From NCBI RefSeq assembly GCF_024721115.1, contig NZ_JAMDHK010000002.1, positions 62,001 to 126,000 on the forward strand: DNA of 64,000 bases. Reading direction: 5' to 3'. Positions 37,457 to 56,416 of the stretch are shown here, piece by piece. The translations under genes and the position numbers were made by a program. Within the stretch, counting starts at the first letter, position 1; every line of letters starts with the position of its first letter. The DNA comes from Salipiger pentaromativorans. GTDB taxonomy: Bacteria > Pseudomonadota > Alphaproteobacteria > Rhodobacterales > Rhodobacteraceae. The notes below the pieces were generated by a model that saw only the letters and a program-made list of their open reading frames with translations, was not told where the DNA came from and searched no databases.

Positions 37457-38707
37457 TCAGGCGCGGTGGCGGCGCGCGGCGCGGTTGGCGATGCCGGCCT
37501 CGGCGCGCAGCCGGGCGACGGTGCGGCGCGACACGTCGATGCCCTCGGCGGCCAGGCTGTCGGCGAGGGCGCCGTCGCTCAGCGGCCGCGCGGGCGGCTC
37601 CTGCGCGATCAGGGCCGCGATGCGGCGGGCAATCGCCGGGGCGCCAAGATCGGGCCGGGCGTCGTGGCCGCGCCGGGCAGCGGCGCAGAAAAAGGCGCGC
37701 AGCGGCAGCGTGCCCGCCGGGGTCCGCGCGGAGCCCGCGTTCACCATCCGGCCGACCGAGCTTTCGTGCCGGCCGATCTCGGCGGCGACCGCGCGCATGG
37801 TCAGCGGGCGCTGCGCTTCGGGGCCATGCCGCAGGAACCCGGCCTGCCGCTCGGCCAGCACGCGCCCCAGCGCCAGAAGCGAGTGGTTGCGCCGCTCCAG
37901 CGCGTCGACCAGAGCCAGGGCGGCGCGGCGCTCTTGTGCCAGCGGCGCGCCGCGCGGCAGCGGGCCGAGATCGGCCAGCGTCAGGCGGGGCAGGGTTTCG
38001 GGGTTGAGCCGCACGCTCCAGCCCGCGCCTTCGGGGGCAAAGATCAGATCGGCGACGCGGGTCTGCGCCAGCGGTGGCGCAAAGCGGGCGGCGGGGCGCG
38101 GGTCGAGCGTTTTCAGCGTCGCGAGCCGGGCCGTCGCCTCGGCTTCCGAGAGACCGCTGTCGCGGCAGAGCGCCGGCAGGCCGCCCGTGGCCAGCACCGG
38201 CAGCGCGTCGAGCAGGCGGCGCATGCCGGCGTCGGGCGGCGTGCCCTCGGCCACGAGCTGCAAGGCCAGCGACTCGGTCAGGGACCGGGCGAAGAGGCCC
38301 GGCGGTTCGATGCGCTGGAGCAGGCGCAGCACCGCCTCGGCCTGCGCCTCGGTGCAGCGGGCGCGGCAAGCGATTTCGGACGGGGGGAGCGAGAGAAAGC
38401 CCGCGGGATCAAGCGCTTCGGTCAGGGCCAGCGCGATGCGCCGCTGCGCCGGGTCGGGCACCAGATAGGGCAGCCGGTCCAGCACATGGGCAATGAGCGA
38501 CGGGCCCGGCGCGGCGCTTGCCTCTGGCGCCGCTTCGACCGCCGGGGGCAGATGCAGCCGCAGCCAGGGGTTGCCGGCGGCGGTTTCGGAAAGCTGGCGG
38601 GCGAGGTCGAGATTGGACAGCTCCAGAAAACCGATCGTGCGGTGCTGGTCCTGGCTGAGCTTCAGCCCGGCCTGTTGGCGCAGCGAGACGGTCTGTCCGA
38701 GTTTCAT
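37457..38707 (-). CDS. rpoN: divergent RNA polymerase sigma-54 factor (RpoN paralog)
   Basis: A 416-residue sigma-54. Region I is recognisable (LRQQAGLKLSQDQHRTIGFLELSNLDLARQL, then NPWLRL). The core-binding part follows (LIAHVLDRLPYL, ALTEALDPAGFL). The helix-turn-helix has LTMRAVAAEIGRHESSVGRMV, and a degenerate RpoN box SRRTVARLRAE lies at about 393-403 where the consensus is ARRTVAKYRE. The protein is shorter than typical (about 480), and the acidic region II is almost absent. It overlaps the amidotransferase stop (ATGA) and ends a 14-kb co-directional cluster that also encodes a sigma-54 activator. A dedicated alternative RpoN is therefore likely; whether a housekeeping rpoN exists elsewhere cannot be seen. 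Confidence 0.85.
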   Translation of the reverse strand: MKLGQTVSLRQQAGLKLSQDQHRTIGFLELSNLDLARQLSETAAGNPWLRLHLPPAVEAAPEASAAPGPSLIAHVLDRLPYLVPDPAQRRIALALTEALDPAGFLSLPPSEIACRARCTEAQAEAVLRLLQRIEPPGLFARSLTESLALQLVAEGTPPDAGMRRLLDALPVLATGGLPALCRDSGLSEAEATARLATLKTLDPRPAARFAPPLAQTRVADLIFAPEGAGWSVRLNPETLPRLTLADLGPLPRGAPLAQERRAALALVDALERRNHSLLALGRVLAERQAGFLRHGPEAQRPLTMRAVAAEIGRHESSVGRMVNAGSARTPAGTLPLRAFFCAAARRGHDARPDLGAPAIARRIAALIAQEPPARPLSDGALADSLAAEGIDVSRRTVARLRAEAGIANRAARRHRA

Positions 38708-39429
38708 GACCTCGTAAGCGTATGCGCGCGCAGGAAGTTTGCAAAGCCCTTGGCGACGCGGCCGCCGTCGAGCGGCTCGGACAGCCCCGCGCGGGCCAGC
38801 GCGGCACGTTCTTCGGGCAGGCGCAGGCCCGAGGGCTCGTCGAGCAGAGCGCGCAGATAGGCCGGGTCGAACTCCGGATGGAACTGCACGGTCAGGGCCG
38901 GGACGGTCTCGTAGCCAAGCCCGCCATTGGGCGAGGCGGCATTGGCCAGCAGCCGCCGCGCGCCCGGCGGCAGCACGGTCACCTGATCCTGATGCGCGGA
39001 GAGCGCGGCGAGCGTCTCGCCGCCGAACAGCGCCGTGCCCTCGGTCGTGAGCCGGTGTTCCTGCCGTCCGATCTGCCAGCCTTCCGCCGATTTCTCGACC
39101 CGCCCGCCGAGCGCCTGGGCAATGATCTGGTGTCCGAAACAGACGCCCAGCAGCGGCACGCGCAGGGCGCCGGCGGCGCGCAGGAACGCCTCCAGCGGCG
39201 GAATCCACGGGTGGTCCTCATAGGCGCCGGCGCGCGCGCCGGTGACCAGATAGGCGTCGAACGCGGCCGGATCTGCGGGCAGGGCGGCCCCTCCGGCGAC
39301 ATAGACGCGGGTGAAACCCGCCTCGGGCAGCGCCGCGCCGAGCCAGGTTTCGAACATGCCCGCATAGGTGCCGAACCGGGGGCGGTGCGTCTCGGCGGGG
39401 CGGTCGGCTTCGAGGATGCAGATCTTCAT
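38704..39429 (-). CDS. class I glutamine amidotransferase-like hydrolase
   Basis: A 241-residue triad glutaminase of the GMP-synthase/PuuD-like group. The nucleophile Cys is in LLGVCFGHQIIAQALGG and the His-x-Glu pair in VQFHPEFDPAYL. There is no synthetase domain attached. Homologues hydrolyse gamma-glutamyl amides such as gamma-glutamyl-GABA. With two glutamine-synthetase-like ligases in the same cluster, cleavage of a gamma-glutamylated amine intermediate is the natural inference. It is translationally coupled to rpoN. Confidence 0.85.
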   Translation of the reverse strand: MKICILEADRPAETHRPRFGTYAGMFETWLGAALPEAGFTRVYVAGGAALPADPAAFDAYLVTGARAGAYEDHPWIPPLEAFLRAAGALRVPLLGVCFGHQIIAQALGGRVEKSAEGWQIGRQEHRLTTEGTALFGGETLAALSAHQDQVTVLPPGARRLLANAASPNGGLGYETVPALTVQFHPEFDPAYLRALLDEPSGLRLPEERAALARAGLSEPLDGGRVAKGFANFLRAHTLTRS

Positions 39430-39484
39430 GGCTGTTGCCCTTGCAGAGCGACCGCGCGGGGGGTACGAGGCGGGAGGAGGCCGG

Positions 39485-40291
39485 TCATTTCCGGCGCTCC
39501 CGCGTTGCGATCACCGCGACGACGATCAGCAGCAGCGACAGCAGCACGATGATCGTGCCCACCGCGTTGATCTCGGGCGTCACCCCGCGCCGCATGGTCG
39601 AGTAGATATACATCGGCAAGGTGTTGTCGCGGCCCGTCAGGAAGAAGGTGACGGGGATCTCGTCGAAGCTCAGCACGAAGGACAAGAGCCCCGCGCCGAC
39701 GATCGCCGAGCGGATGTTCGGCAGGGTGACATCGACAAAGCTGCGCCAGGGCGTGGCACCAAGATCGTAGGCCGCTTCCTGCAGCGATTTCGGCAGGCGC
39801 TGGAGCCGGGCATAGACCTGCGTCACCACCACGCCCAGAAGCGCCGTGGCATGGCCGAGGACCACCGTTTCCAGGCTAAGCTGAAAGCCCATGAGCCGGA
39901 ACATGTTCAGCATCGAGATGCCGGTGACGATGCCGGGCAGGGTGATGGGCAGCAGGATCAGCCGGCGAAAGACGGATTTGCCGGGAAAGTCGAACCGGTG
40001 CAGCACCATCGCCGCCGGCACGCCGACGCAGAGCGTCAGCAGCGTGGCCAGCGAGGCGACGTAAAAGCTGTTGCCGATGGCGGCCTGAAGGTCGGTGTTC
40101 TCGGCCAGTTTGCGATACCAGTCGAGGGTGAAGCCCGAGAGCGGCCAGGTGAGCGAGCGCGAGTCGTTGAAGGAAAACGCGATCAGCACCCAGATCGGGA
40201 TATAGAGGAAGGCCATCAGCGCCGCGACAAAGGTCATGAAGGCGGTGTCGGCGCCGTAGCGGGCCATCAGCGAAGGGGTGTTCTTGGTCAT
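39485..40291 (-). CDS. potC: polyamine-type ABC transporter permease (PotC-like)
   Basis: A 268-residue inner-membrane protein with six helices and the EAA coupling motif QEAAYDLGATPWRSFVDVTLPNI. Together with the other permease, ATPase and binding protein it forms a spermidine/putrescine-type importer. It starts one base after the potB-like stop. The family imports cationic amines, but amino acids and opines are also known, so substrate is inferred from neighbours. Confidence 0.9.
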   Translation of the reverse strand: MTKNTPSLMARYGADTAFMTFVAALMAFLYIPIWVLIAFSFNDSRSLTWPLSGFTLDWYRKLAENTDLQAAIGNSFYVASLATLLTLCVGVPAAMVLHRFDFPGKSVFRRLILLPITLPGIVTGISMLNMFRLMGFQLSLETVVLGHATALLGVVVTQVYARLQRLPKSLQEAAYDLGATPWRSFVDVTLPNIRSAIVGAGLLSFVLSFDEIPVTFFLTGRDNTLPMYIYSTMRRGVTPEINAVGTIIVLLSLLLIVVAVIATRERRK

Positions 40292-40292
40292 C

Positions 40293-41159
40293 TCAGGTCC
40301 CTCCCGTCAGACCCTTGCGCTCCAGCCGGTCCGAGACGGATACGATGGAGAGCACCACGATCAGCATCACGATGGCCAGCGCCGAGCCCAGCGGCCAGTT
40401 GAGCGCCGCGCCGAACTGCGTGGCGATCACATTGGCCACGAGGTTGCCGTCGGGCCCGCCGACGAGGAAGGGCGCGATGAAATCGCCGAAGGACAGGCAG
40501 AAGGTCAGCGTGAACCCCGCCGCCACACCGGGCAGCGAGAGCGGCAGGGTGACGTGCCAGAAGCTGCGCCAGGGGCTCATGCCCAGATCGGCGGAGGCTT
40601 CGGTCAGGTTCACCGGGATCTTCTCGAGCGCCGTGTAGATCGGCATCACCATGAAGGGGATGAAGATATAGGTCAGCGTCACCACCATCGAGAACTGGTT
40701 GTAGAGAAACAGGCTCGACGGTTCGTCGATGATTCTCAGCCACATCAGGAAGGAGTTGAGCACGCCTTCGGTGCCGAGGATGGTCTTCCAGATATAGGCG
40801 CGCAGCAGGTAGCTGACCCAGAGCGGCGCGATCACCGCCATGTAAAGCCAGGTGCGCAGCGCCTGCGAGCGGCAGCGGAACACCAGGTAATAGGCGAAGG
40901 GATAGGCCAGCAGGAACGAGGCCGCCGAGACCAGCAGCGATATCTTCAGCGTGCGCAGGAAGACCCGCAGATATTGCGGATCGGTGAACAGCGTCACGTA
41001 ATTGCCGAACTGGAAGGCGGGCAGGAAGGTGGGGTATTTCTTCAGCCAGAAGGAATAGGTCACGATGATGCCATAGGGCAGCAGCATGAAGACCAGGATC
41101 CACAGCACCGGGATGCCCACCACCAGCGCGCCCGGAAGATTGCGGCGCAGCAGGTTCAC
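40293..41159 (-). CDS. potB: polyamine-type ABC transporter permease (PotB-like)
   Basis: A 288-residue membrane permease, partner of the PotC-like protein. The EAA loop reads TEASADLGMSPWRSFWHVTLPLSLPG and the hydrophobic segments match a six-helix plan. The ATG at 41159 overlaps the potA-like stop by 4 nt. The mid-region LLRAYIWKTILGTEGVLN is typical of PotB. Confidence 0.9.
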   Translation of the reverse strand: MNLLRRNLPGALVVGIPVLWILVFMLLPYGIIVTYSFWLKKYPTFLPAFQFGNYVTLFTDPQYLRVFLRTLKISLLVSAASFLLAYPFAYYLVFRCRSQALRTWLYMAVIAPLWVSYLLRAYIWKTILGTEGVLNSFLMWLRIIDEPSSLFLYNQFSMVVTLTYIFIPFMVMPIYTALEKIPVNLTEASADLGMSPWRSFWHVTLPLSLPGVAAGFTLTFCLSFGDFIAPFLVGGPDGNLVANVIATQFGAALNWPLGSALAIVMLIVVLSIVSVSDRLERKGLTGGT

Positions 41160-42253
41160 GGCGCGACCCTCCCCTCGAAGACGAAGACATTATGCGGCGC
41201 CACCGCCAGCCGCATCGACTGGCCGATCTGCGGCAGCACGCTCTGCGCCAGCCGGTCGGGCAGCAGGCTGTCGGCAAAGACCCGGGCGCCGCCCTCGAGC
41301 TCGACCGCCACGCGCAGGCCGAGCCCGTAATAGATGACCTCGGCCACCCGGCCCGAAAGCGTGTTTTCGGCGCTTTCGGTCTCGGCCAGCACCCGCACCT
41401 TCTCGGGGCGGAAGCCGATGGTGATCTCGCGCCCCGGCGGCGGGGCGGCGTCGAGCTCGGCGCGCAGCGTGGTGCCCGGTGCCTCGACATGGGTGAGCCG
41501 GCCCTGCGTCGCGCCCGAGGTGCCGGGCAGGAAATTCGTCGTGCCGATGAAATTCGCCACATAGGGCGAGGCGGGATGATCGTAAAGATCCTGCGGCCGG
41601 CCCTCCTGCGCGATGCGCCCGCTTTCCATCACGACCACCCGGTCGGACATCACCAGCGCCTCCGTCTGGTCGTGGGTCACCATGATGAAGGTGATACCCA
41701 CCTTCTCGTGCAGGTGCTTGAGTTCGATCTGCATCTGCTCGCGCAGCTTGGCGTCGAGCGCCGAAAGCGGCTCGTCGAGCAGCAGCACCTTGGGGCGCCG
41801 CACGATGGCGCGGGCCAGCGCGATGCGCTGGCGCTGGCCGCCCGAAAGCTGCTGCGGGCGCTGGTTGACCTTGTCGTAAAGCCCCACCAGCGACAGCGCG
41901 TCCTTGACCCGCGTCGCGATCTCGCCCTTCGAGAGCCTCAGGGTCTTCAGCCCGTAGCCGACATTCTCGCCCACGCTCATATGCGGAAACAGCGCATAGT
42001 CCTGGAACACCATGTTGACCTCGCGCTTGTAGGGCGGATCCCAGGTCACGTCTTTGCCGGCGAGGCGGATGCTGCCATGGGTCGGCGCCTCGAACCCGCC
42101 GATCATCCGCAGAAGTGTGGATTTGCCGCAGCCCGAGGGGCCCAGCAGCGTCACGAACTCGCCGTCCTCGACGGTGAGCGACACATCGTCCACGCCGATG
42201 ATCGTGGGGCTGTAATGCTTGGAGAGGTTCTCCAGTTCGATAATCGCGGCCAT
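41156..42253 (-). CDS. potA: polyamine-type ABC transporter ATPase (PotA-like)
   Basis: A 365-residue ATPase: Walker A GPSGCGKST, Q-loop VFQDYALFPHMSVGENV, signature LSGGQRQRIALARA, Walker B VLLLDEPLSALD and H-loop VTHDQTEAL. A C-terminal TOBE regulatory domain follows (IGFRPEKVRVL, LPDRLAQSVLPQIGQ). It follows the binding-protein gene after a 96-nt gap that contains a strong hairpin. Confidence 0.92.
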   Translation of the reverse strand: MAAIIELENLSKHYSPTIIGVDDVSLTVEDGEFVTLLGPSGCGKSTLLRMIGGFEAPTHGSIRLAGKDVTWDPPYKREVNMVFQDYALFPHMSVGENVGYGLKTLRLSKGEIATRVKDALSLVGLYDKVNQRPQQLSGGQRQRIALARAIVRRPKVLLLDEPLSALDAKLREQMQIELKHLHEKVGITFIMVTHDQTEALVMSDRVVVMESGRIAQEGRPQDLYDHPASPYVANFIGTTNFLPGTSGATQGRLTHVEAPGTTLRAELDAAPPPGREITIGFRPEKVRVLAETESAENTLSGRVAEVIYYGLGLRVAVELEGGARVFADSLLPDRLAQSVLPQIGQSMRLAVAPHNVFVFEGRVAP

Positions 42254-42314
42254 GTCGCCTCGTTCCCTGTCGTTGAGGTGGCGGGCGCTCCTCCCAAGAC
42301 TTCCCGCCTTATGG

Positions 42315-42343
42315 GCTGTCCGGCCCCCGGGGGGCCGGACAGC
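42315..42343 (-). promoter_or_regulatory. strong intercistronic hairpin between potD-like and potA-like genes
   Basis: An almost uninterrupted palindrome (GCTGTCCGGCCCC against GGGGCCGGACAGC) lies just after the binding-protein stop. No T-run follows on the minus strand. Such hairpins commonly protect the upstream message or attenuate, giving more binding protein than transporter. Confidence 0.65.
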
Positions 42344-42349
42344 GGGAGG

Positions 42350-43393
42350 TTATTGCGCCTTCACGGCGTTCCAGGCGTTGGTATAGGTCTCGAACCGGTC
42401 GCCGAGCGGCGTCCAGATCAGCAGGCTGTCGAGATAATCGGGGTCGTCCTGGTGCAGCGCCGAATACTGTTCCGCCGTCATGCAGGCCTTGGCGGCGCTG
42501 GCATTGGCGGCGGAATAGCCGTTCACATTGGCGACGCCGCACTGGCCCAGCTCCGAGAGCTGCATGTTCAGGAACTTGTAGGCGCAATCCTTGTTGGGGG
42601 TGTCCTTGACCACCATCCAGGAATCCATCCAGCCCTCGGCGCCTTCCTCGGGAATGAACTCGGTGACCGCCACGCCTTCGGCGGCGAGCAGGCTCGACTG
42701 ATACCCGGCCCAGGTGTTCGAAATCACCACCTCGCCGGCCTTGTAGAGATCGACCAGCTCCCCCGCCGTGGCCCAGTATTTTCGTACCAGCGGCTTCTGT
42801 GCCAGCAGGCTGTCCTGCGCGGCGGCGATCTGGTCGTCGGTCAGGTTGTAGATGTCCATATCGCCGTTCTTGCGCGCGGCCACATAGATCGCGCTCTTGT
42901 CGTCCCAGAGCGAGATCTTGCCGGCAAGATCCTCGCTCCAGAGCGCGTCCAGCGAGCTGGGCGGCGTGTCGAAGGCGGAATCGAGATACATGAAGGCGAT
43001 GGCGCCCCAGCTATAGGGCATGCCGTAATAGGCGCCGTCCTGCTGGATCCCGTCCTGGGCGAGAAACTTGGGATAGATCCCGTCCCAGCCGGTGATCGCG
43101 GCGGTGTCGAGCGGTTCGACAAAGCCCAGGTCGATCATGAGCTGGGTGGTGTCGATCGACGGTGTGATGAGGTCATAGACCCCGCCGCCGGCCATCAGCT
43201 TGGGCGCGAAATCGTCGTTCGAGCCGACATAGGTGGCGTTGACCTTGCAGCCCGAGGTTTCCTCGAACGGGGTGATGAAGGAGGGATCGGCATAGCCCTC
43301 CCAGGTCAGCACGTTGATCGTGCCCTCCGCCCAGGCGGCGCCCGAGGTGAGCGCCGCGATGCAGCCGGCGGTAATACCCTTCTTGATCGTCAT
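42350..43393 (-). CDS. potD: polyamine-type periplasmic binding protein (PotD-like)
   Basis: A 347-residue exported protein. A short signal peptide (MTIKKGITAGCIAALTSGAAWA) is followed by the PotD/PotF-like start TINVLTWEGYADPSFITPFEE. The central GMPYSWGAIAFMY and GEVVISNTWAGYQSSLLAAEG are hallmarks of the family. Conserved Asp and Trp residues in these loops normally bind amine groups. It belongs to the P450/glutamine-synthetase cluster and probably captures the amine substrate. Confidence 0.9.
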   Translation of the reverse strand: MTIKKGITAGCIAALTSGAAWAEGTINVLTWEGYADPSFITPFEETSGCKVNATYVGSNDDFAPKLMAGGGVYDLITPSIDTTQLMIDLGFVEPLDTAAITGWDGIYPKFLAQDGIQQDGAYYGMPYSWGAIAFMYLDSAFDTPPSSLDALWSEDLAGKISLWDDKSAIYVAARKNGDMDIYNLTDDQIAAAQDSLLAQKPLVRKYWATAGELVDLYKAGEVVISNTWAGYQSSLLAAEGVAVTEFIPEEGAEGWMDSWMVVKDTPNKDCAYKFLNMQLSELGQCGVANVNGYSAANASAAKACMTAEQYSALHQDDPDYLDSLLIWTPLGDRFETYTNAWNAVKAQ

Positions 43394-43438
43394 TTTTGTT
43401 GGTTCCTTCTGTTGGACAAGTGTCTGTTTTCCGGCCGC

Positions 43439-44824
<1,386 letters not shown>

Positions 44825-44827
44825 CGC

Positions 44828-46003
44828 CTAGCCCCGTGCCCTCAGCGGCGGCGCGCCCGTGCCGCTGATCCCCAGCCGCGCGCGCAGGCTGAGCACCAGG
44901 CACTCGGTGCCGCGCAGGCTGAGCGGGCGCGCGGCGAGATCGGCGCGGAAGCTCTGGCTGGGCGTGCGCAGCCCCACCGCGATCGTGCTCACCGGATGGC
45001 CGGGCAGCCGCTCCGCCGCCGTCGCGAAAAGCGCGCTCAGCGCCATGGGCAGATCGACCAGATCGGTCAGCGACCGGCCCGGCAGCAGATCGGGCGACAG
45101 GTCGAAGAGTTCCTCGGCGGCAAGGTTGGCGCGCAGCAGATGGCCTTCGCCATCCACCACCAGCACCGCGTCGGGCAGCGCCGCGAGGATTGCCTCCAGC
45201 GTCTCGATCTCCTCGCGCAGCACGGCGGCGCGGCGGGCGTGTTTCGACACGTCGCGCACCGTGCCCCACATCCGGTAAAGCCGGTTGCCGCGGATATGGC
45301 CGCGCACATCGTTCTCGACCTCGATCCAGACGCCGTCATAGCGCAGATCGCGCGAGGGCGAGCCGTTCACGTCGAAATTCGCCTGCACCAGCCGGTGGAC
45401 GAACTCCTCGTTCTCGGGGCTGCGGGGAAAGGTCTCGTGCACCGGCAGGGCGTTGAAATCGGCGCCCTCGGGGGTGCGGTAAAGCCGCGCCATGGCATCG
45501 TTGCAAAAGCGCCAGCGCGGCCCGTTCTCGAAGACCTGGCGGATGATCTCCTGTTCGGGCGCCGACAAGTCCACGGGCTCGGCCCATTCCATGCACCAGC
45601 CGGCATCGTCCGAGGCGGCGAGGATCGAGCTGATCACCTCGTTCTCCTCGGCCAGACTTGCGGCGTTTTCCAGCATGCCGCTGCTGCGCCATTTCACCGT
45701 GCGCAGGCAGATGCCGTGATCGGGGTGGGAGATGCGGGTGACCACGGCCGTGACGGGGAGCAACGTCCCGTCGTCACGCCGCATCTCCAGCGCCACGAGA
45801 TGAGGCCCGGCATCGGGCTGGCCGAACAGCTCTTCGAGCCGTTCGCGCGCCGGCAGCCGGTAGATCCGCGACCAGTCCGCCCCGGCAAGCGCGCCGGGCG
45901 CGGTTCCCAGAACCGCCTCCTGCGCCGCGCAGATCTGCGCGACCCGGCCCTCGCGGGTCAGGATGTCGGTCATCTCGGTCTGGTCGGTGGTCCTCACGCT
46001 CAT
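44828..46003 (-). CDS. PAS-repeat sensor protein without kinase or output domain
   Basis: A 391-residue cytoplasmic protein that appears to contain three PAS-like modules (about 20-130, 140-265 and 275-385). The second includes WRFCNDAMARLYRTPEGADFNALP and the third VLVVDGEGHLLRANLAAEELFDLSPD. A short coiled region (KHARRAAVLREEIETLEAIL) separates the last two. No kinase, cyclase or DNA-binding domain is present. A GGAGAG site selects the ATG at 46003. Tight coupling to the sigma-54 activator (3-nt gap) suggests a protein-protein sensor pair. Confidence 0.75.
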   Translation of the reverse strand: MSVRTTDQTEMTDILTREGRVAQICAAQEAVLGTAPGALAGADWSRIYRLPARERLEELFGQPDAGPHLVALEMRRDDGTLLPVTAVVTRISHPDHGICLRTVKWRSSGMLENAASLAEENEVISSILAASDDAGWCMEWAEPVDLSAPEQEIIRQVFENGPRWRFCNDAMARLYRTPEGADFNALPVHETFPRSPENEEFVHRLVQANFDVNGSPSRDLRYDGVWIEVENDVRGHIRGNRLYRMWGTVRDVSKHARRAAVLREEIETLEAILAALPDAVLVVDGEGHLLRANLAAEELFDLSPDLLPGRSLTDLVDLPMALSALFATAAERLPGHPVSTIAVGLRTPSQSFRADLAARPLSLRGTECLVLSLRARLGISGTGAPPLRARG

Positions 46004-46032
46004 GGTGCTCTCCTGGTCCAATGGTCAGCGGG

Positions 46033-47511
46033 TTACGGCACGCAGTGCAGATACCGTTCCACATCCCAATTGGTGACCTCCCGGAGGAAGCGCGTCCATT
46101 CATCTTGTTTGTATTCGTCGAAGACCTCGTAAAGCCGCCCCGGCAGCGCCGAGCGCACCACATCGTCGGCGCGCAGCGCGTCGAGCGCATCGCGCAGGTT
46201 GAGCGGAATGAGATCCACCGGCTCGCCGGACATCCAAAGCTCGGTCACGTTGCGCGATTCCGGCGCGCCCGGGTCGATCTTGTTGCGGATGCCGTCGTCC
46301 ATCGCCTTGAGCAGCGCGCCACAGAAGAGATGCGGGTTCACCATGCTGTCGACCGCGCGGAACTCGAACCGGTCGGGCGAGGAAATGCGGATCGAGCAGG
46401 AGCGGTTCTGAAGGCCCCAGTTGGCGCCGATGGGGGCCCAGAGCCCGTAATCGTTGAACCGCCGGTAGCTGTTCACCGTCGAGGCGCCCAGGCAGGTCAG
46501 CGCGTTGATATGTTTCAAAGATCCGCCAAGGACGTGATGGCCCAGCTCGGTCGGCAGCCAGCCGCCCTCGGTGTTCTCGAAGGCGTTGGTGCCGCCCTTG
46601 GAATACATGAAATTCTCTTCCATGCCGGGCAGCTCGCCGGGGATCAGCTCTTGCAGCTCGCGCGAGCCGCCGGTCCAGACCGAGCAGTTGTGATGGCAGC
46701 CATTGGCGGCGTAGCCCATGAAGGGCTTGGCCATGAAACAGGCGATCAGCCCGCGCTGCCGTGCCACCTCGGCGCAGATCTGGCGGTAGGTGGTCATGCG
46801 GTCGCAGGTCGGCAGCGCGTCGTCGAACTGATAGTTCAGCTCGATCTGGCCGGGCGCGTCCTCGCAATCGCCCTGGATCATGTCGAGACCCATGGCGCGG
46901 GCATAGTCCGAGACCTGCATCCAGATGTCGCGGGCGCCCTCGAACTGGCCGATGTGATAGGCGAGCGGTTCGGTGACGCCCTTGTAGGGTTGGACCTCGC
47001 CGTCCTTGGGTTCGAGCCAGAGCATCTCGGGTTCCAGCCCGACGCGCAGATGCAGCCCGTTATGCGCCTCGCGGAATTCGCGGTCGAAGCGCTTGAGGTT
47101 GCCGCGGGTGTCGTATTCGTAACAGGCGCCGGGCAGGTTGGGGTCTTCGAGGCTGTAGAACAGCGTACAGAAGACCCGCGCCACGCGCTTGTCCCAGGGA
47201 AGCTGCACGAAGCTGTCGGGATCGGGCAGGGCGATGCATTCCATCGCGTTGGAATCAAAGCCGATCAGGTTGCCCTTGAAGTCGGGCAGCACGTTGGTGA
47301 CGCCACCCATCCAGGTCTGCACACCCTTGCGCGCCTGGGTTTCCCAGTGCCGCGCGGGGGCGGCCTTGCCCATCACCCGGCCGGTGATCGAGATATATTG
47401 GTAATAGATGTAATCCACGCCGAGCGCGTCGATCTTCTTGCGCACGCGGGCGACCATGTCGGCGCGGCCCGGTGCGTCGACCTCGCGGTGATAGTCGGTG
47501 TCTGTTGTCAT
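46033..47511 (-). CDS. glutamine synthetase-like gamma-glutamylamide ligase (copy A)
   Basis: A 492-residue glutamine-synthetase-fold protein. ATP/glutamate-site pieces are LRVGLEPEMLWLEP, QGDCEDAPGQIELNYQFDDAL, NGCHHNCSVWTGG and a divergent NSYRRFNDYGLWAPIGANWGLQNRSCSIRI, then RFEFRAVDSMVNPHLF. It lacks the adenylylation-site context of GlnA. Such variants (PuuA, IpuC, GlnA3 and PipC-like) ligate glutamate to amines other than ammonia. Clustering with a P450, ferredoxin and amine importer supports that reading. Confidence 0.85.
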   Translation of the reverse strand: MTTDTDYHREVDAPGRADMVARVRKKIDALGVDYIYYQYISITGRVMGKAAPARHWETQARKGVQTWMGGVTNVLPDFKGNLIGFDSNAMECIALPDPDSFVQLPWDKRVARVFCTLFYSLEDPNLPGACYEYDTRGNLKRFDREFREAHNGLHLRVGLEPEMLWLEPKDGEVQPYKGVTEPLAYHIGQFEGARDIWMQVSDYARAMGLDMIQGDCEDAPGQIELNYQFDDALPTCDRMTTYRQICAEVARQRGLIACFMAKPFMGYAANGCHHNCSVWTGGSRELQELIPGELPGMEENFMYSKGGTNAFENTEGGWLPTELGHHVLGGSLKHINALTCLGASTVNSYRRFNDYGLWAPIGANWGLQNRSCSIRISSPDRFEFRAVDSMVNPHLFCGALLKAMDDGIRNKIDPGAPESRNVTELWMSGEPVDLIPLNLRDALDALRADDVVRSALPGRLYEVFDEYKQDEWTRFLREVTNWDVERYLHCVP

Positions 47512-47540
47512 GTCGGGCTCCCTGTTGGTGTTGTTCTGTC

Positions 47541-48857
47541 TCAGCCTTCGAGATAGCGGGCGCGTTCTTCGGCGCTGACCGCCGTCGCGAGGCTGGCGTA
47601 TTCGGCGCGGCAGGCGGCCGCGAAGTTCTCGGTGAAGGCGGTGCCGAAGATGCGCTTGGCATGGTCCGAGGCGGCAAGCCGCCCTGCCGCCTCGGCCAGA
47701 TCGCGGGGAAAGCGCTGCGCGCCTTCGGGCACGAAATCGGGATGGGCGGCCTCGGCGGGCGGCGGCGCGGGCAGGTCGCGTTCGATGCCGTCGAGCCCGG
47801 CGCCCAGCATCAGCGCCATGGTGAGATAGGGGTTGCAATCGGCGGGCGGCACGCGGAATTCCAGCCGCGCGCGCGGGTCCGCGTGGGGGACGGAACGCAC
47901 GGCGACGGTGAACGGGTATTCCGCCCAGGTCAGCGATTTCGGCGCCCAGCTTCCCGGCGCCAGACGGCGATAGGCGTTGACCGAAGAGGTGCACATGGCA
48001 AAGGCCTCGGGCACCACCTGCATCATGCCGGCGATGAACTTGCGCGCCAGATCGTTGGTCTGGCCCGAGGGATCGGAGAAGAGGTTTGCGCCGGTGCTCT
48101 TGTCGCGCAGGCTCATGGTGCAATGGCCGCCGATGCCGGGATACTCCTTGCCGAGATAGGGCATGAAGCTGGCGGTCTTGCCCTGCTTGCGGGCGTAGGA
48201 GCGGGCGGCCATGCGCAGGAACGCGGCGTCGTCGGCGGCGCGCAGCCCCTCGGTCGCGGCCTGCGTCGCCTCCAGGCAGCCCGGCCCCAGCTCGACGCTC
48301 AGCGCATAGAGCGACACGTCATGGCCGAGGATCTCGGCCTCCATCCCGGCGATGAACGCGGCATGGGTATTGGCGGTGGCGCCCGACCAGCATTTGTTGT
48401 CGGGGGCGAATTTCTCCAGTCCTTCGAAGCCCTTGTCGCGTGAAGTTGAGGCGTCTTCGTCAAGCACGATCAGTTCGAATTCGAACCCGGCATCGACCTT
48501 GAAGCCCATCGCCTCGGCGCGGTCGAGCTGCGCGCGCAGCACCTGACGCGGCATCAGCGCGCGGGCCTCGCCCGAGAGTTCGGCGATCACCGTGACGGCG
48601 TTCGGCTCGGACGGGTTGCGGCGCATCGAGGCCGGGTCGATCTCGACCGTCTCGGTGAAAAAGGAGGTGCCGCCGAACAGCGTGTCGCCGCTGTCCCAAT
48701 ACGCCAGCACATTGGCAAAGCGCGGATCGCCCGCCCAGTGCAGGAAGGGCTCGCGCCGCAGCCGGCGTTCGCGGAAGACCGAGCCGTAATCGAACTGGCC
48801 GACATGCACGATCTCGGCGCCGAAGCGGTCGAGGGCGGAGGTGAGAAGGTCTGTCAT
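47541..48857 (-). CDS. glutamine synthetase-like gamma-glutamylamide ligase (copy B)
   Basis: A 438-residue second GS-fold protein only distantly related to copy A. Marks are DAGFEFELIVLDED (first metal-site glutamates), ALSVELGPGCLEATQAA, PGIGGHCTMSLRDKSTGANLF and NAYRRLAPGSWAPKSLTWAEYPF. It has VAVRSVPHADPRARLEFRVPPADCNPY where GS has the NRS-x-x-RIP block, so the substrate pocket differs from GlnA. The ATG at 48857 is preceded by GAGG; a TTG at 48875 would overlap the reductase. Two different GS-like enzymes side by side could act in sequence, on different amines, or as a heteromer. Confidence 0.83.
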   Translation of the reverse strand: MTDLLTSALDRFGAEIVHVGQFDYGSVFRERRLRREPFLHWAGDPRFANVLAYWDSGDTLFGGTSFFTETVEIDPASMRRNPSEPNAVTVIAELSGEARALMPRQVLRAQLDRAEAMGFKVDAGFEFELIVLDEDASTSRDKGFEGLEKFAPDNKCWSGATANTHAAFIAGMEAEILGHDVSLYALSVELGPGCLEATQAATEGLRAADDAAFLRMAARSYARKQGKTASFMPYLGKEYPGIGGHCTMSLRDKSTGANLFSDPSGQTNDLARKFIAGMMQVVPEAFAMCTSSVNAYRRLAPGSWAPKSLTWAEYPFTVAVRSVPHADPRARLEFRVPPADCNPYLTMALMLGAGLDGIERDLPAPPPAEAAHPDFVPEGAQRFPRDLAEAAGRLAASDHAKRIFGTAFTENFAAACRAEYASLATAVSAEERARYLEG

Positions 48858-48864
48858 CAAGGCC

Positions 48865-50082
48865 TCATGCGTCAACGGGAGGGGTGAGCGCGGCGGTCAG
48901 CCGGGCGCGGTGGCGGGCCAGCGCGGCGGGGTTGGCGCCAAGCCCGATCAGGCCGACGGGCCGCCCGGCGCGGGCGTATTCGACGATCACCGGGGCTGTG
49001 CCGGTCTGGCTCAGATCGCCCTCGATCACGGTCTGGGTCTCGGCCAGCGCCGGGGCGCCGAAAGCCTGAAGCCGCATGCCGTATTGATCGCTCCAGAAGC
49101 TGGGCATCGGGGCGAAGCCGGGCGTCGGCCGTTGCCCGGTACAAAGCGCGGCAATCGTTTCGGCGGCGCGTTTCGCGGTCTGGCCGGGGATGCACCAATG
49201 TTCGGTGCGGCGCGGCACGGCATCGAAGAGCGGGTTGGCGAAGCGGGCGATGTCGCCCACCGCCAGCAGGTTTTCGGCACCGGGGGCCAGCATCCGGTCA
49301 TCGACCAGCACGCCGTCGCTCAGATCGGCGCCGCTGTCGGTCAGCCAGCCGGTGTTGGGCTGTGAGCCAAGCGCCTCGACAATGACATCGGCCTCGAGCG
49401 CCTGCCCGTCGTCGAGGATGACGCGGGCACCGTCGAACCCGGCGACCGCGCGGCCCGAGAGCAGGGTGACACCGTGGGAGCGGTGCAGCGCCGCCATGGC
49501 GGCGGCAACCCGCGCGCCGAGGGCGCGCAGCATCGGCTGCGGCGCGGGTTCGACCAGCGTCACATGTAGGCCGAGCTTGCGGGCGGTGGCGGCGATCTCG
49601 CAGCCGATGAAACCCGCGCCGATGACCACCATCCGCGCGCCGGTGCGCAAGGTCGCGGCGAGGGTCAGCGCGTCGTCGTAGCTGCGCAGCACATGGCGCC
49701 GGTCCTCGGCGCCGGTGAGCGGCAGACGGCGCGGGCGGAGGCCCGTGGCCGCGACCACCCAGTCGCTGCCGATGCGGCGCCCGTCGCTCAGACGCACATC
49801 GGTGCCGTCGAGCGCCTCGGCCGCCACGCCCAGCCGCAGGGTCACGGCGCCCGGCGCCAGCTTGCTGCGCAGGCGCAGCTTTTCGAACACCTCCGGCCCC
49901 GCTCCGGGGCCGGCGGCCAGCGCCTCGGCCGCGTCCTTCGACAGCGGCGGGCGGTTATAGGGGGCGTGTCGCTCGTCGCCCACCAGCGTCACCCGCGCCT
50001 CGGGCAGCGCCGCCAGCAGCGCCTCGGCACAGCGCAGCCCGGCCAGCGAGGCCCCGACGATGGTGATGCGCGGCGCGGCCAT
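48865..50082 (-). CDS. NAD(P)H-ferredoxin reductase (BphA4/putidaredoxin reductase type)
   Basis: A 405-residue FAD/NAD(P) flavoprotein. N-terminal FAD site ITIVGASLAGLRCAEAL, substrate loop YNRPPLSKD, NAD(P)H site MVVIGAGFIGCEIAATARKLGL and the FAD-ribityl motif LLAVGDIARF. It should pass electrons from NAD(P)H to the small ferredoxin encoded next door and on to the P450. The ATG at 50082 lies 5 nt after the ferredoxin stop. Confidence 0.92.
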   Translation of the reverse strand: MAAPRITIVGASLAGLRCAEALLAALPEARVTLVGDERHAPYNRPPLSKDAAEALAAGPGAGPEVFEKLRLRSKLAPGAVTLRLGVAAEALDGTDVRLSDGRRIGSDWVVAATGLRPRRLPLTGAEDRRHVLRSYDDALTLAATLRTGARMVVIGAGFIGCEIAATARKLGLHVTLVEPAPQPMLRALGARVAAAMAALHRSHGVTLLSGRAVAGFDGARVILDDGQALEADVIVEALGSQPNTGWLTDSGADLSDGVLVDDRMLAPGAENLLAVGDIARFANPLFDAVPRRTEHWCIPGQTAKRAAETIAALCTGQRPTPGFAPMPSFWSDQYGMRLQAFGAPALAETQTVIEGDLSQTGTAPVIVEYARAGRPVGLIGLGANPAALARHRARLTAALTPPVDA

Positions 50083-50087
50083 CCGGG

Positions 50088-50273
50088 TCAGCCGATCACG
50101 ATGGCCTGCTCGGGGCAGGCATCGGAGGCGGCCTCGACATCGGCGGCGAGCGACTCGTCGACCTCGGCAAGCCAGACCAGCCCGCCATCGTCGTCGAAGG
50201 AGAACACCTCGGGCGCGGCGATGACGCATTGGCCGTGCAGCAGGCAGATGGACATATCCACATGGACTTTCAT
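50088..50273 (-). CDS. P450-type 3Fe-4S ferredoxin
   Basis: A 61-residue single-cluster ferredoxin. The motif is C10-x2-H13-x2-C16 ... C53-P, so the second cysteine of the usual set is histidine. This is the pattern of small [3Fe-4S] ferredoxins paired with bacterial P450s. It is acidic, as expected for docking on P450. It lies between the P450 and its reductase, and the three together form a class I P450 system. Confidence 0.93.
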   Translation of the reverse strand: MKVHVDMSICLLHGQCVIAAPEVFSFDDDGGLVWLAEVDESLAADVEAASDACPEQAIVIG

Positions 50274-50310
50274 GTTTGCGGTTCCTTTTTCCGGAAGGGC
50301 GCGGCGCCGG

Positions 50311-51519
50311 TCAGGCGGCGTCGAAGGCGATGGGCATGGCGGTGGCGCCGGTGTTGCCGCTGTCGGGCAGCCACAGCACCTCGCCGTTGAAGCGCGGGTT
50401 CTTGAGCCGTTGCGCCAGCAGCTTCAGCGCCTCGGTCATGTCGCCGCGGGCGATGAAATGCCCCAGACAGTGATGGGTGCCGCCGCCAAAGCCGAAATGC
50501 GGCTTGCGCTTTGCGGTGATGTCGAAATCGGTGGTCTCGAAGACCGCCGGGTCCGAGGCCGCCGATTGCGAGAAGAGATGCACGGTGGTGCCCTGCGGGA
50601 TCTCGGTGCCGTTATAGGTGAAGGTCTCGGTCGCCTCGCGGGTGACCCAGGTGACCGTGGGGCGCACGCGCATGACCTCTTCCACCGCCGGGCGGGCCAG
50701 ATCGGGCTGTTCCGCCAGAAGCGCCCATTGCTCGGGGTGTTCGATGAACATCGCCATGGCGAGGCCGAGCTGGTTGCGGGTGGTGTCGATGCCGCCGAAG
50801 ATCGCCAGCACGATCATGTCCAGAAGCTCCTGATCGGAAAGCTGGTCCGTGTCGGCATTGGCCCGGACCAGCATGCCGATGAAATCCTCCGAAGGCTCGG
50901 CCCGGCGCAGCGCCACCAGTTCCTCGGCATAGGCAAAGAGCCGTTCGGTGGCAGCGTCCACCGTGGCCTGATCGCGCTTGTAGCTCACCGCAAGCGCCAG
51001 CCCCATGTCGCCCGCGATGTCGGCCAGCTCGCGCCATTTCTCGAAGGGCAGGCCCAGCAGGTCGCAGATGACGCCGGTGGCATAGGGTTCGGTGAACTCG
51101 GCGATGAAATCGCATTCCCCCTTCTCGGCAAAGCCGTCGATGAGCCTGTTGGCCAGCGCCTGGAATTTCGGGATGAGCGACGAGATGAGCTTGGGCGAGA
51201 AGGCCGGGTTCGCCATCCGGCGCAGCCGCGCGTGTTCCGAGCCTTCCTGGCTGAGCAGCATCTGTTCCCACCAGCGCGCGAAGGCGCCGCCGGTCACGCC
51301 GCTATGGGCGGGCCAGCGATAAGAGCCCTGGCGCAGCTTGGGGTGGCGCAGCATCTTCTGCACGTCGTCATAGCGCAGCACTGCAAGCCCATAGGGCGTG
51401 CGGGCGCACCAGGCGGCATCGCGCGCGTCGAGAACCGCTTGCGAACGGATCGAGAAATCGGCATCTGCGATGTCGAGATAGGGCAGGGCGTCGGTGGAGA
51501 GAATCTCCTGCTGCGTCAT
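50311..51519 (-). CDS. cytochrome P450
   Basis: A 402-residue soluble bacterial P450. The heme ligand is Cys351 in FGFGGGTHHCLGHFIAR, the I-helix oxygen-binding motif is IFGGIDTTRNQLG, and the ExxR motif is EEVMRVRP. The start at 51519 follows GGGAGG; an upstream frame lacks a site. It is the first gene of the cluster, 35 nt downstream of the predicted start of a -24/-12 promoter. In known systems for cyclic secondary amines a P450, a ferredoxin and a GS-like enzyme occur together, which is the model I favour for its role. Confidence 0.95.
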   Translation of the reverse strand: MTQQEILSTDALPYLDIADADFSIRSQAVLDARDAAWCARTPYGLAVLRYDDVQKMLRHPKLRQGSYRWPAHSGVTGGAFARWWEQMLLSQEGSEHARLRRMANPAFSPKLISSLIPKFQALANRLIDGFAEKGECDFIAEFTEPYATGVICDLLGLPFEKWRELADIAGDMGLALAVSYKRDQATVDAATERLFAYAEELVALRRAEPSEDFIGMLVRANADTDQLSDQELLDMIVLAIFGGIDTTRNQLGLAMAMFIEHPEQWALLAEQPDLARPAVEEVMRVRPTVTWVTREATETFTYNGTEIPQGTTVHLFSQSAASDPAVFETTDFDITAKRKPHFGFGGGTHHCLGHFIARGDMTEALKLLAQRLKNPRFNGEVLWLPDSGNTGATAMPIAFDAA

Positions 51520-51564
51520 GTCGGTGCCTCCCGGGCAAAGGTCGCGGTTCCCGGGATAAGGCAC

Positions 51565-51580
51565 GCAAGTTCTTGTCCAG
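51565..51580 (-). promoter_or_regulatory. candidate sigma-54 (-24/-12) promoter of the P450 cluster
   Basis: On the minus strand CTGGACAAGAACTTGCGT has TGG at 51579-51577 and TTGC at 51568-51565, with exactly 10 nt between GG and GC, the required spacing. The -12 TTGC is perfect; the -24 side keeps TGG but not CACG. Initiation would fall near 51553, 34 nt before the P450 ATG. The cluster's own sigma-54 activator and RpoN support it. Confidence 0.65.
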
Positions 51581-51597
51581 AATGACTGCATTTCTGG

Positions 51598-51610
51598 CAA
51601 GCATCTGATT
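51598..51610 (-). promoter_or_regulatory. candidate IHF site
   Basis: AATCAGATGCTTG on the minus strand differs from the IHF consensus WATCAA-N4-TTR at one position. It lies in an AT-rich patch about 45-57 bp upstream of the predicted sigma-54 start, where IHF often bends DNA to bring an activator to the promoter. Confidence 0.45.
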
Positions 51611-51697
51611 AATAGTGGAATTAAATTTTATGCTGCCGCCATGGGGCGGACTCCCGCGGGGCGCGGGCGTTTCCGAGGCGGCCTTCGATGCAGAAAT

Positions 51698-51713
51698 TCA
51701 TCACCGATGATGA
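51698..51713. promoter_or_regulatory. candidate activator (UAS) palindrome
   Basis: TCATCA-CCGA-TGATGA is a perfect 6-bp dyad centred about 150 bp upstream of the predicted sigma-54 start. That is a usual distance for Fis-type enhancer-binding proteins such as the one encoded in this cluster. Only one copy is visible. Confidence 0.35.
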
Positions 51714-51760
51714 CGCGCATCGCCGCGCGGGCGCGTTGCCGGGCTGGCCGGGCGCGGGGC

Positions 51761-52996
51761 TCAGGGCGCGGTTGCGGTGGTTTCCGTGTCCGGATGCAGC
51801 CCCGCCACCCCGAGGATCGCGGCGAGCCCGGCGTAAAGGCCGCGCAGGCTCGGTTCGGGGGCCACGTCGATCCATTCCCCAAGCGTGTGGGCGCGCCCGC
51901 CGCAACCGCCGGTGCCGATCTTGACGGCGGGAATGCCCAGGCTCATCGGGATATTGGCGTCGGTCGATCCGGTCTCGGGGCGCATGGTGAAGCCGAAGGC
52001 GGCCAGCGCCGCGTCGCAGGCGCGGACGATGGGCGCCGAGGGGTCGGTTCCGCCGGCGGGACGGGCGCCAAGCCGGGCGGCCTCGACGGTGATTTCGCCG
52101 TGGCTGGTGTCGCCCCGGGCGTTCTCGGCCTCGACCGCCGCCGCGATCAGCATGTGCAGATCCGAATCCAGACGGTTGAGTTCCTCCTGGCAGACCGACC
52201 GCAGGTCGATCTCGGTCCAGACCTCTTCGGGGATGGCGTTGATCGCGCTGCCGCCGCCGAAGACGCTGGCGCAATAGGTGGTGCGCGGCTCGGAGGGCAC
52301 GCGCCAGCGCGCCATGCCGGCCACCACATCGGCCATCACATGCGCGGGGTTCACGGTGCCGAAGGCGCCGTAGCTGTGCCCGCCCGGGCCGCGAAAGGTG
52401 ATCCGGTAGCGGTGCGAGCCCACCGCACGGATCACCACCGGCTCCACCTCGGGGCTGTCGAGGGTGAAGAAGGCGCCGATGCGGTCGCGATAGCGGCCTT
52501 CGATCAGAAGATGGCGGATGCCGCGCAGGTCGCCTTTGCCTTCCTCGCCCACATCCGCGACGAACAGCAGATCCTGTTCGGTCTCGATCCCGGCGGCATC
52601 GAGCGCGCGGGCGAAGGCCAGCAGCACCGCCAGCCCGCGCGTGTCGTCGCCGATGCCCGGGGCGTAGAGCCGCGTGCCTTCGCGGCGGACGGTCACGTCG
52701 GTGCCTTCGGGAAACACCGTGTCGAGATGCGCCGCCAGAACCACCATCTGCCCGTTGCCGCGCCCGCGGCGGAGGCCGGTCACATTGCCGATGGCGTCGG
52801 TCCGCACCTCTTCCAGCCCCTGCGCCGCCAGCCTTTCGCGGAACGCCGCCGCACGGCGCGCCTCGTGGAAGGGCGGCGCGGGGATTTCCGTCAGCGCAAT
52901 GATCTCCTCCACCAGCCGGTCGTGCTGGGCGCGCAGGGTCTCTTGCGCTTGGGCAAAGGCGGGATGGGCGACGATGCGGGCGATGTTGCGGGTCAT
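51761..52996 (-). CDS. M20-family metallohydrolase (peptidase/deacylase)
   Basis: A 411-residue M20 enzyme with a two-zinc site. Ligand motifs in order are LAAHLDTVFP, GIGDDTRGLAVL, ADVGEEGKGDLRG (general-base Glu) and the distal GSTDANIPMSLGIPAVKIGTGG. The dimerisation domain has FRGPGGHSYGAFG. Relatives cleave peptides, N-acyl or N-carbamoyl amino acids. It follows the PLP enzyme gene by 17 nt with a GGAAGGA site. In context it probably hydrolyses an N-acyl or N-carbamoyl product of the hydantoinase-like step. Confidence 0.88.
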   Translation of the reverse strand: MTRNIARIVAHPAFAQAQETLRAQHDRLVEEIIALTEIPAPPFHEARRAAAFRERLAAQGLEEVRTDAIGNVTGLRRGRGNGQMVVLAAHLDTVFPEGTDVTVRREGTRLYAPGIGDDTRGLAVLLAFARALDAAGIETEQDLLFVADVGEEGKGDLRGIRHLLIEGRYRDRIGAFFTLDSPEVEPVVIRAVGSHRYRITFRGPGGHSYGAFGTVNPAHVMADVVAGMARWRVPSEPRTTYCASVFGGGSAINAIPEEVWTEIDLRSVCQEELNRLDSDLHMLIAAAVEAENARGDTSHGEITVEAARLGARPAGGTDPSAPIVRACDAALAAFGFTMRPETGSTDANIPMSLGIPAVKIGTGGCGGRAHTLGEWIDVAPEPSLRGLYAGLAAILGVAGLHPDTETTATAP

Positions 52997-53013
52997 TCCA
53001 GGGTCCTTCCGGG

Positions 53014-54147: not shown

Positions 54148-54202
54148 GACGGCTCCTGTCTGTTCGGTCGGCGCGGGTTTGCCCGGGCAGGGTAGAGCCT
54201 GC

Positions 54203-54226
54203 GCCCGGCAGATGCGAGGGCCGGGC
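54203..54226 (-). promoter_or_regulatory. intercistronic hairpin after the ABC ATPase gene
   Basis: GCCCGGC (54203-54209) pairs with GCCGGGC (54220-54226), loop 10 nt, in the 96-nt gap between the ATPase and the PLP enzyme genes. It may stabilise the transporter message; there is no T-run. Confidence 0.35.
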
Positions 54227-54243
54227 GCGCGCGCCGGCGCCGC

Positions 54244-56369: not shown

Positions 56370-56416
56370 CTTGTGGGTCTCCTGTTGGTCGCGTTTGGTT
56401 GGGGAAGGGGCGGGGG

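Follow-up and report, generated by a model that had tools for sequence, protein, structure and literature searches.

Sigma-54 (RpoN) is usually viewed as one global housekeeping factor or as a few paralogues within one host, and its canonical RpoN box reads ARRTVAKYR. Concerning amine degradation, the gene order of the Mycobacterium pip/mor systems joins a cytochrome P450 with a ferredoxin and a reductase, and the regulator PipR of these bacteria is not known to be linked to sigma-54. Cereibacter sphaeroides has dedicated RpoN paralogues, among them RpoN3, which is paired with the activator AprX (PMC11999139), and one survey counts several rpoN genes in about 5% of organisms (PMC12316311). The pip/bioI P450s of Gulosibacter are reported with a reductase and an electron-transfer partner, and with glutamine synthetase (GS) genes at neighbouring locus numbers (PMC9477822). 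Here, we present a locus of Salipiger pentaromativorans found in a stretch of 64,000 nucleotides that we call the window (contig NZ_JAMDHK010000002.1, forward-strand positions 62,001 to 126,000; host genome of 5.28 Mb). It combines a P450, a ferredoxin, a reductase, two GS-like ligases, a polyamine-type importer and an amidotransferase-fold hydrolase with a PAS protein, a sigma-54 activator and an RpoN, and is probably a self-contained operon for amine catabolism that has spread horizontally and brings a private sigma-54. Comparison among loci supports the gene set, its co-inheritance, the conservation of a promoter and a palindrome, a private RpoN clade and a covariation of sigma factor and promoter. 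No report of a catabolic operon encoding its own sigma-54, nor of this gene set, was found in the open-access literature.

The island comprises 13 co-directional minus-strand genes, from the P450 (start 51519) to RpoN (end 37457; Table 1). Their spacing ranges from a 4-nt overlap up to 55 nt, with the sole exception of the 96 nt between the binding protein and the ATPase, the largest gap. An earlier note on this DNA had described 13 co-directional, closely spaced genes; all of them are present, and domain searches agree for the ten proteins that a Pfam/NCBIfam scan assigned, the ATPase and the two permeases being taken from the open reading frames (ORFs) and their conserved place. The island end given there, 51619, has to be corrected to the P450 start.

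Using the PAS protein alignment alone as query, one scan of named genomes fetched 16 loci. The whole 13-gene set is present with its order kept in ten of them (L028, L030, L031, L032, L034, L035, L037, L038, L040, and L041), the hosts being Thioclava, Sinirhodobacter, Salinihabitans, Defluviimonas and two metagenome-assembled genomes (MAGs); because all 13 genes recur in order among loci fetched by one protein, the conservation of the island is not due to chance. Three further loci (L029, L036, L039) are interrupted by contig ends and their readable parts match the island order. Oricola (L042) carries PAS, activator, importer, RpoN, P450 and both GS genes in a different arrangement, and Litoreibacter (L043) has only PAS, activator and importer with an aldehyde dehydrogenase (ALDH). 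In L028-L035, L037, and L041 the stretch separating the last permease from the place of the amidotransferase also holds an ALDH gene. Across 12 loci, RpoN distances correlate with the distances of ten further island genes (Mantel r 0.55-0.87, 0/2000 permutations each), a result that speaks of co-inheritance and not of function. It had been claimed that the P450 half and the pot/rpoN half belong together, a view to be abandoned if neighbourhoods did not conserve them jointly; they are joint in 10/16 loci and co-inherited. An arrangement of the two halves as unrelated neighbours is ruled out by the same shared order and co-inheritance.

Within the genus, the PAS gene was found in one of 20 genomes, the window's own, and the island is therefore an acquisition in this genus. 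The P450 by itself has a broader distribution: relatives occur in 11 of 198 family genomes, three of which (window, G046, G083) have a close GS partner in the stretches read. A plasmid of Ruegeria SCSIO 43209 (L014, 9987-19624) bears P450, both GS genes, importer and amidotransferase beside a divergent Lrp-type regulator. This metabolic half also includes a 2Fe-2S protein, and transposase genes flank it on both sides. Additionally, a related P450 (53-56%) adjoins an unannotated GS-like stretch on plasmids of Streptomyces clavuligerus and Gordonia KTR9 (L016, L017).

The island RpoN carries the activator-interacting, core-binding and DNA-binding domains, with PF00309 matched at 24.7 bits (cut-off 23.8). 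The canonical box is found in most other RpoNs aligned; island RpoNs are of the SRR[V/T] or PRRM type, specifically SRRTVARLR in the window and mostly SRRVVAKLR-like in the other copies. In a tree of 51 RpoN sequences (21 duplicates, fragments or odd entries excluded), a single clade (support 0.963) holds 14 island RpoNs and the partial copy of a MAG that bears the island (L088), and it is separate from the paralogues of the same genomes included in the tree. The RpoNs of Paracoccus sp. TOH and Oricola are a separate pair (support 0.994). Sigma54_DBD matches (E 0.001) were obtained in 35 of 100 family genomes, 33 of them exceeding the curated cut-off. The island RpoN is the sole sigma-54 match in six of the 16 genomes of the PAS scan (Thioclava pacifica, Thioclava sp. 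JE_KL1, Salinihabitans flavidus, Defluviimonas sp. WL0075 and two MAGs), a count that rests on draft assemblies throughout; in one of these MAGs the RpoN lies on another contig and was assigned to the island by similarity and tree. The earlier proposal that this amine-oxidation island brings its activator and RpoN with it is partly supported, the gene set being conserved as a unit and its RpoN co-inherited.

A -24/-12 element lies 57-92 nt ahead of the matched P450 start in 14/14 island loci, with the consensus TGGAAC-N4-CTTGCA. Its GG and GC are 10 nt apart in all 14, as sigma-54-dependent promoters need. The promoter of the window (TGGACAAGAACTTGCG at 51579-51564) is off consensus, as are those of L033 (AGGAAG) and L040 (TGGTCA), and the same loose pattern gives 0-3 other scattered matches per island locus. 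An extra match to TGGAAC-N4-CTTGCA before the PAS gene of two Sinirhodobacter loci was set aside, as it falls in the end of GS-like 2. Further upstream, a palindrome like GATGCA-N4-TGCATC is located at about -180 (-181 to -215) in 13/13 loci with enough upstream sequence, scoring 11 out of 12 in six loci, 10 in five and 9 in L032 and L033. Beyond the 400-nt upstream stretches a score of 11 is reached in 0/13 loci and a score of 10 at one to three sites per locus; the palindromes of the two weakest loci, L032 and L033, are not distinctive. In the window's genome the palindrome-promoter pair is unique to the island. Of the 198 family genomes searched, 13 contain a single match, which in two cases is an island, and a reversed control of the pattern gave no match. 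The island promoter would be a private promoter type read by the island RpoN.

Concerning the regulators, the GAFTGA loop and the Walker A motif of the AAA+ domain are intact in the activator of the window, in which no receiver domain was found. Both are kept in the six island activators of the sole-RpoN genomes. In these genomes the canonical GAFTGA is present only in the island activator, the loop being altered or deleted in the other readable activator-family loci (L126, L128 and weaker rows without a locus excluded). No kinase domain was found among the Pfam matches of the PAS protein. Its AlphaFold model, built from 17 sequences, has three PAS-like units (mean predicted local distance difference test score 82.9, predicted template modelling score 0.45); Foldseek gave PpsR as the best match, without its helix-turn-helix (HTH), and the NifL-NifA complex at rank 19.

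The RpoN might be an accidental neighbour in an operon that uses any sigma-54 of its host. Two other RpoNs exist in the window's genome, one in a region read as nif and one in a propane-monooxygenase-like cluster, and distant clusters devoid of RpoN do occur in genomes with a host RpoN. Specifically, in other ARRANGEMENTS four more distant PAS-activator clusters were detected besides the window (385 class genomes searched). Three of them have at least one GS-like gene, one also a P450, and the contig of the fourth is only 10 kb long. No RpoN was found in the stretches read of these clusters, and each of the four genomes has exactly one RpoN elsewhere, with a canonical box. Their activators retain GAFTGA (GSFTGA in L209), and the three readable promoter sites (L209, L210) are of the canonical TGGCA type. 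However, the constant position at the operon end, the co-inheritance and the private promoter type of the island RpoN, as well as its being the sole sigma-54 found in 6/16 genomes, make an accidental association highly improbable.

A sister group of PAS-activator-importer-ALDH clusters without P450, GS and RpoN has lost the GAFTGA loop in 14/14 cases (L043, L217, L218, L223-L233). These are Litoreibacter, Ruegeria PR1b, Hoeflea and 11 further plasmid clusters, ten of Rhizobiaceae and one of Methylobacterium, with two near-identical Shinella records among them; 15 plasmid records were opened. No sigma-54 match was obtained in the Litoreibacter genome, where the activator palindrome stands directly before the PAS start (L043), as if the cluster had switched to another sigma factor. 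Loss of the loop as a result of a host without sigma-54 is contradicted by the 11 additional clusters, nearly all rhizobial, since rhizobia usually carry a housekeeping RpoN. One more plasmid hit (L234) keeps GAFTGA, with no importer, P450 or RpoN in its stretch.

The private sigma-54 of the island has counterparts. In a sample of 100 family genomes, we counted 39 RpoN places (five rows below 25 bits excluded, split rows merged). Thirteen lie beside lptB (housekeeping), five in flagellar and three in nif-type neighbourhoods (two of these by a NifS-type match only), four in propane-monooxygenase-like clusters, two beside a peptide-type ATP-binding cassette (ABC) importer and activator (from ORFs), one beside acetone/acetophenone-carboxylase-like genes and two in amine islands, while nine are unassigned. 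Apart from TOH, four of 185 matching plasmid records were inspected. In three of them, from Gemmobacter fulvus, Paracoccus aminophilus and Ponticoccus alexandrii, the neighbour of RpoN is the monooxygenase cluster; in the fourth, from Neorhizobium petrolearium, RpoN stands beside acetone-carboxylase genes. Given these neighbourhoods, a catabolic cluster with its own sigma-54 is a recurrent arrangement, and the expectation that the present island would be singular in this respect has to be dropped. On another contig of the window's genome (L140, 9308-19903) RpoN stands directly before a hydroxylase, a reductase, a MimD-like protein and GroEL, and the same linkage was seen in L179, L180, L184 and the plasmids L219, L220, and L222. 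RpoN together with a sigma-54 activator adjoins the acetone/acetophenone-carboxylase-like genes of L142 (Sinirhodobacter ferrireducens) and L221 (N. petrolearium plasmid); of the two activators, that of L142 was seen to carry the GAFTGA loop. Finally, L143, L144, L171, and L175 carry a peptide-type ABC importer, a short GAFTGA activator and a conserved uncharacterised protein with RpoN beside them, possibly another private sigma-54 module.

Comparison of RpoN boxes with promoters suggests that the two covary. Modules with V or M at position 4 of the box have A or T after the GG of the -24 element in 15/15 cases, and those with T or A have C in 8/9, the exception being the window. TOH and Oricola combine canonical boxes with canonical promoters (TGGCACGGGAGTTGCA, TGGCACGGGAATTGCA; TGGCACGAGAGTTGCA, TGGCATGTCGATTGCA). 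Among the propane-monooxygenase-like clusters, L140, L184, and L222 pair an SRRM or SRRV box with GGAA, and L179, L180, L219, and L220 an ARRT or SRRA box with GGCA; several of these promoter sites have weak -12 elements, and in L219, where a second site scored equally, the one at the distance seen in other loci was chosen. Because the loci are related, the covariation is a lead and not a test. A Fisher test that took sites and not modules as its units was discounted for this relatedness and for the exception of the window. Promoter differences at single positions between RpoN paralogues are in print (PMC3162934). On balance we consider it likely that catabolic modules move as "bring-your-own-sigma-54" cassettes of activator, RpoN and matching promoter in the Rhodobacterales, which are poor in sigma-54, and in some neighbouring groups. 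Each would provide an insulated channel whose regulon can be one operon, and the covariation (SRR[V/M] with GGAA, ARRT with GGCA) may represent a natural sigma-promoter code.

Turning to the enzymes, the ammonia-site residue Glu327 of GS is replaced by Trp in 19/19 cluster GS-like proteins (10/10 for GS-like 1, 9/9 for GS-like 2), and the FDGSS motif (Asp50) is absent from all 19. The best GS match of the genome (contig C7, taken as GlnA) retains both. The solved glutamate-methylamine ligase 9qur also has Trp at this position, as does one further GS paralogue of the host genome (paralogue C5a excluded), and the GS-like proteins reach the curated cut-off of none of the GS-type models listed. 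Ordinary glutamine synthetases are ruled out by the Trp and the missing FDGSS, and the suggestion that the proteins are not ammonia-only receives in this way a positive answer, at the level of sequence only. The ferredoxin has three cluster cysteines in its sequence, pointing to a [3Fe-4S] type. The precedent of PuuD, invoked for the amidotransferase in the earlier note, was discarded, as the best solved relative is gamma-glutamyl peptidase 1. On a plasmid of Paracoccus sp. TOH, P450 (61%), GS1 (59%), GS2 (68%), PAS, activator and RpoN lie together. This strain is a piperazine degrader according to the title of Cai et al. 2013, as cited in PMC5172442.

The order of the steps can be read in two ways. 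Under the same regulation, a GS-like ligase might act first, the P450 oxidising the gamma-glutamyl amide and the hydrolase freeing glutamate, as in Ipu- or Puu-like routes. Glutamylation is the first step of the isopropylamine (Ipu) pathway, both GS-like proteins resemble amine ligases and the hydrolase resembles gamma-glutamyl peptidase, which makes this order a tenable minority view. However, secondary amines are presumably poor glutamylation partners, and characterised P450 relatives oxidise the free amine according to one report (PMC9477822). Because of the latter, we would favour P450 oxidation followed by GS capping, an order at least as likely as that of the earlier note.

It is also possible, if doubtful, that the substrate is not cyclic, in which case the P450 would dealkylate at the nitrogen of, or hydroxylate, a linear alkylated amine or polyamine, and the released amine would pass to the GS-like ligases. 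The polyamine-type binding protein and the closeness of GS-like 2 to glutamate-methylamine ligase would fit. So would a gabT-annotated gene that follows the importer-ALDH clusters of rhizobia in several records, which argues for linear diamines in that sister group and hence for that importer type. Against a linear substrate, P450, ferredoxin and reductase beside GS match the reported Gulosibacter pip/bioI arrangement (PMC9477822), and a relative is present in the strain that the cited title reports as a piperazine degrader.

Finally, the island could detoxify or modify an amine or serve biosynthesis. The island P450, with its adjacent ferredoxin, reductase and GS-like gene, has 3p3l as nearest solved structure, which we take to be AurH (CYP151A), a biosynthetic enzyme. 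Additionally, Streptomyces coelicolor is reported to survive an excess of polyamines by means of GlnA3 (PMC10956863). A role outside catabolism is nevertheless quite unlikely, since the operon of most relatives encodes an importer, an ALDH and a hydrolase and since TOH is linked to piperazine degradation through that title.

In the preferred reading, an amine would be catabolised under the control of a private sigma-54. The amine or the redox/nitrogen state would be sensed by the triple-PAS protein together with the GAFTGA activator. The activator would bind the palindrome at about -180 and open one divergent -24/-12 promoter read by the operon's own RpoN. Induction may feed back positively, since PAS protein, activator and RpoN are all encoded in the operon. 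The amine taken in by the polyamine-type ABC importer would most likely be piperazine or a similar small cyclic secondary (di)amine. P450, ferredoxin and reductase would hydroxylate the carbon next to the nitrogen, and the ring would open to an aminoaldehyde. The two GS-like ligases could then cap the amine as a gamma-glutamyl amide, preventing re-cyclisation, an ALDH (encoded in the operon in most relatives, elsewhere here) would make the acid, and the amidotransferase-fold hydrolase would free glutamate. Substrate and step order are proposed from the likeness of the enzymes to known ones.

Besides the limits given above for the Mantel correlations and for the draft assemblies, two MAGs among them, several points weigh against this reading. 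Pacificispira (L033) is without the amidotransferase, the sole gene of the set absent there, and the ALDH is missing from the operon in the window, L038, and L040. RpoN evolves faster than the ten other island proteins compared (mean distance 0.457), which could mean weak constraint. A fixed unit is also questioned by the absence of a close GS partner for eight of the 11 family P450 relatives in the stretches read (one only 5.3 kb) and of RpoN in the stretch of the Ruegeria SCSIO 43209 plasmid with the metabolic half. Several hosts, among them Pacificispira, Oricola and Salipiger pentaromativorans itself, have RpoNs in addition to that of the island, so a private RpoN also occurs where sigma-54 is not otherwise lacking. 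The loss of GAFTGA in the sister group marks a sigma-54-independent lineage of importer-ALDH regulators, not hosts without sigma-54. The SRRT box of the window breaks the residue-4 rule. The piperazine link rests on one strain and one title, and the neighbours of the TOH P450 are a major facilitator superfamily (MFS) transporter and a flavoprotein reductase, not the ABC importer and ferredoxin set. The whole reading is built on sequence comparison.

If correct, it would explain how a sigma-54-dependent pathway enters bacteria without sigma-54, and would offer natural sets of sigma factor, activator and promoter, maybe mutually insulated. Sigma-54 would here be a member of the operon, and the covariation makes the reading of the -24 element by sigma-54 directly testable. 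In case the substrate is a cyclic amine, the island would mark degraders of industrial amines such as piperazine.

The coordinates of the island are collected in Table 1. Upstream of it, minus-strand genes at 51621-56420 of the window (from ORFs) encode an M20-type peptidase, a D-threonine-aldolase-like protein, a Pot-type ATPase and a binding protein, and look like a separate catabolic operon.

Table 1. Predicted features of the amine island, in coordinates of the window.
Feature	Position	Strand	Basis
Enhancer-like palindrome GATG-N8-CATC, putative activator site (upstream activating sequence, UAS)	51687..51702	-	11/12 vs GATGCA-N4-TGCATC
-24/-12 sigma-54-type promoter TGGACAAGAACTTGCG	51564..51579	-	matched site in 14/14 island loci
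Cytochrome P450, 402 aa	50311..51519	-	PF00067; best solved relative 3p3l, E=6.6e-77
Ferredoxin, 61 aa	50088..50273	-	PF13459, PF13370
NAD(P)H-ferredoxin reductase	48865..50082	-	PF07992, PF14759
GS-like ligase 1, 438 aa	47541..48857	-	PF00120
GS-like ligase 2, 492 aa	46033..47511	-	PF00120; solved relatives include glutamate-methylamine ligase 9qur
Triple-PAS protein without kinase domain, putative co-sensor	44828..46003	-	PAS families
Sigma-54 activator: PAS + AAA+ with GAFTGA + HTH	43439..44809	-	PF00158, PF00989, PF18024; ORF sequence
Polyamine-type solute-binding protein	42350..43393	-	YdcS/PotF/PotD model matches below their cut-offs; solved relatives PotF, PotD
PotA-type ABC ATPase	41156..42253	-	ORF sequence; conserved place
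PotB-type permease	40293..41159	-	ORF sequence; conserved place
PotC-type permease	39485..40291	-	ORF sequence; conserved place
Class-I amidotransferase-fold hydrolase, putative gamma-glutamyl amide hydrolase	38704..39429	-	PF00117; gamma-glutamyl peptidase 1 9k7i, E=3e-16
RpoN (sigma-54), divergent RpoN box SRRTVARLR	37457..38707	-	PF00309, PF04963, PF04552 above cut-off

Compared with the known systems, the island shares P450, ferredoxin and reductase with the piperidine/pyrrolidine/morpholine systems (PipA and MorABC of Mycobacterium, BioI/PipA of Gulosibacter), and a nearby GS with that of Gulosibacter (PMC9477822). To these it adds a second GS-like gene, an amine importer, a hydrolase and control by PAS protein, activator and RpoN. 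With the Ipu (isopropylamine) and Puu (putrescine) pathways the common elements are GS-like ligases and a putative gamma-glutamyl hydrolase. Unlike Puu, the island has a P450 in place of the Puu oxidase, no PuuB being found among its 13 genes, and its hydrolase is gamma-glutamyl-peptidase-like. The Trp at the position of GlnA Glu327 is common to the island GS-like proteins and to gamma-glutamylmethylamide synthetase/glutamate-methylamine ligase, whereas the partner genes differ. Concerning regulation, RpoN1, RpoN2 and RpoN3/AprX of Cereibacter (Rhodobacter) sphaeroides resemble the island in that a paralogue is tied to one function and one activator (PMC11999139, PMC12316311); however, those paralogues serve genes of one host with four RpoNs, while the island RpoN is a member of the operon that it presumably serves and the only sigma-54 found in 6/16 genomes. 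Dedicated RpoN paralogues were known, and what appears to be new here is a sigma-54 encoded inside a catabolic operon.

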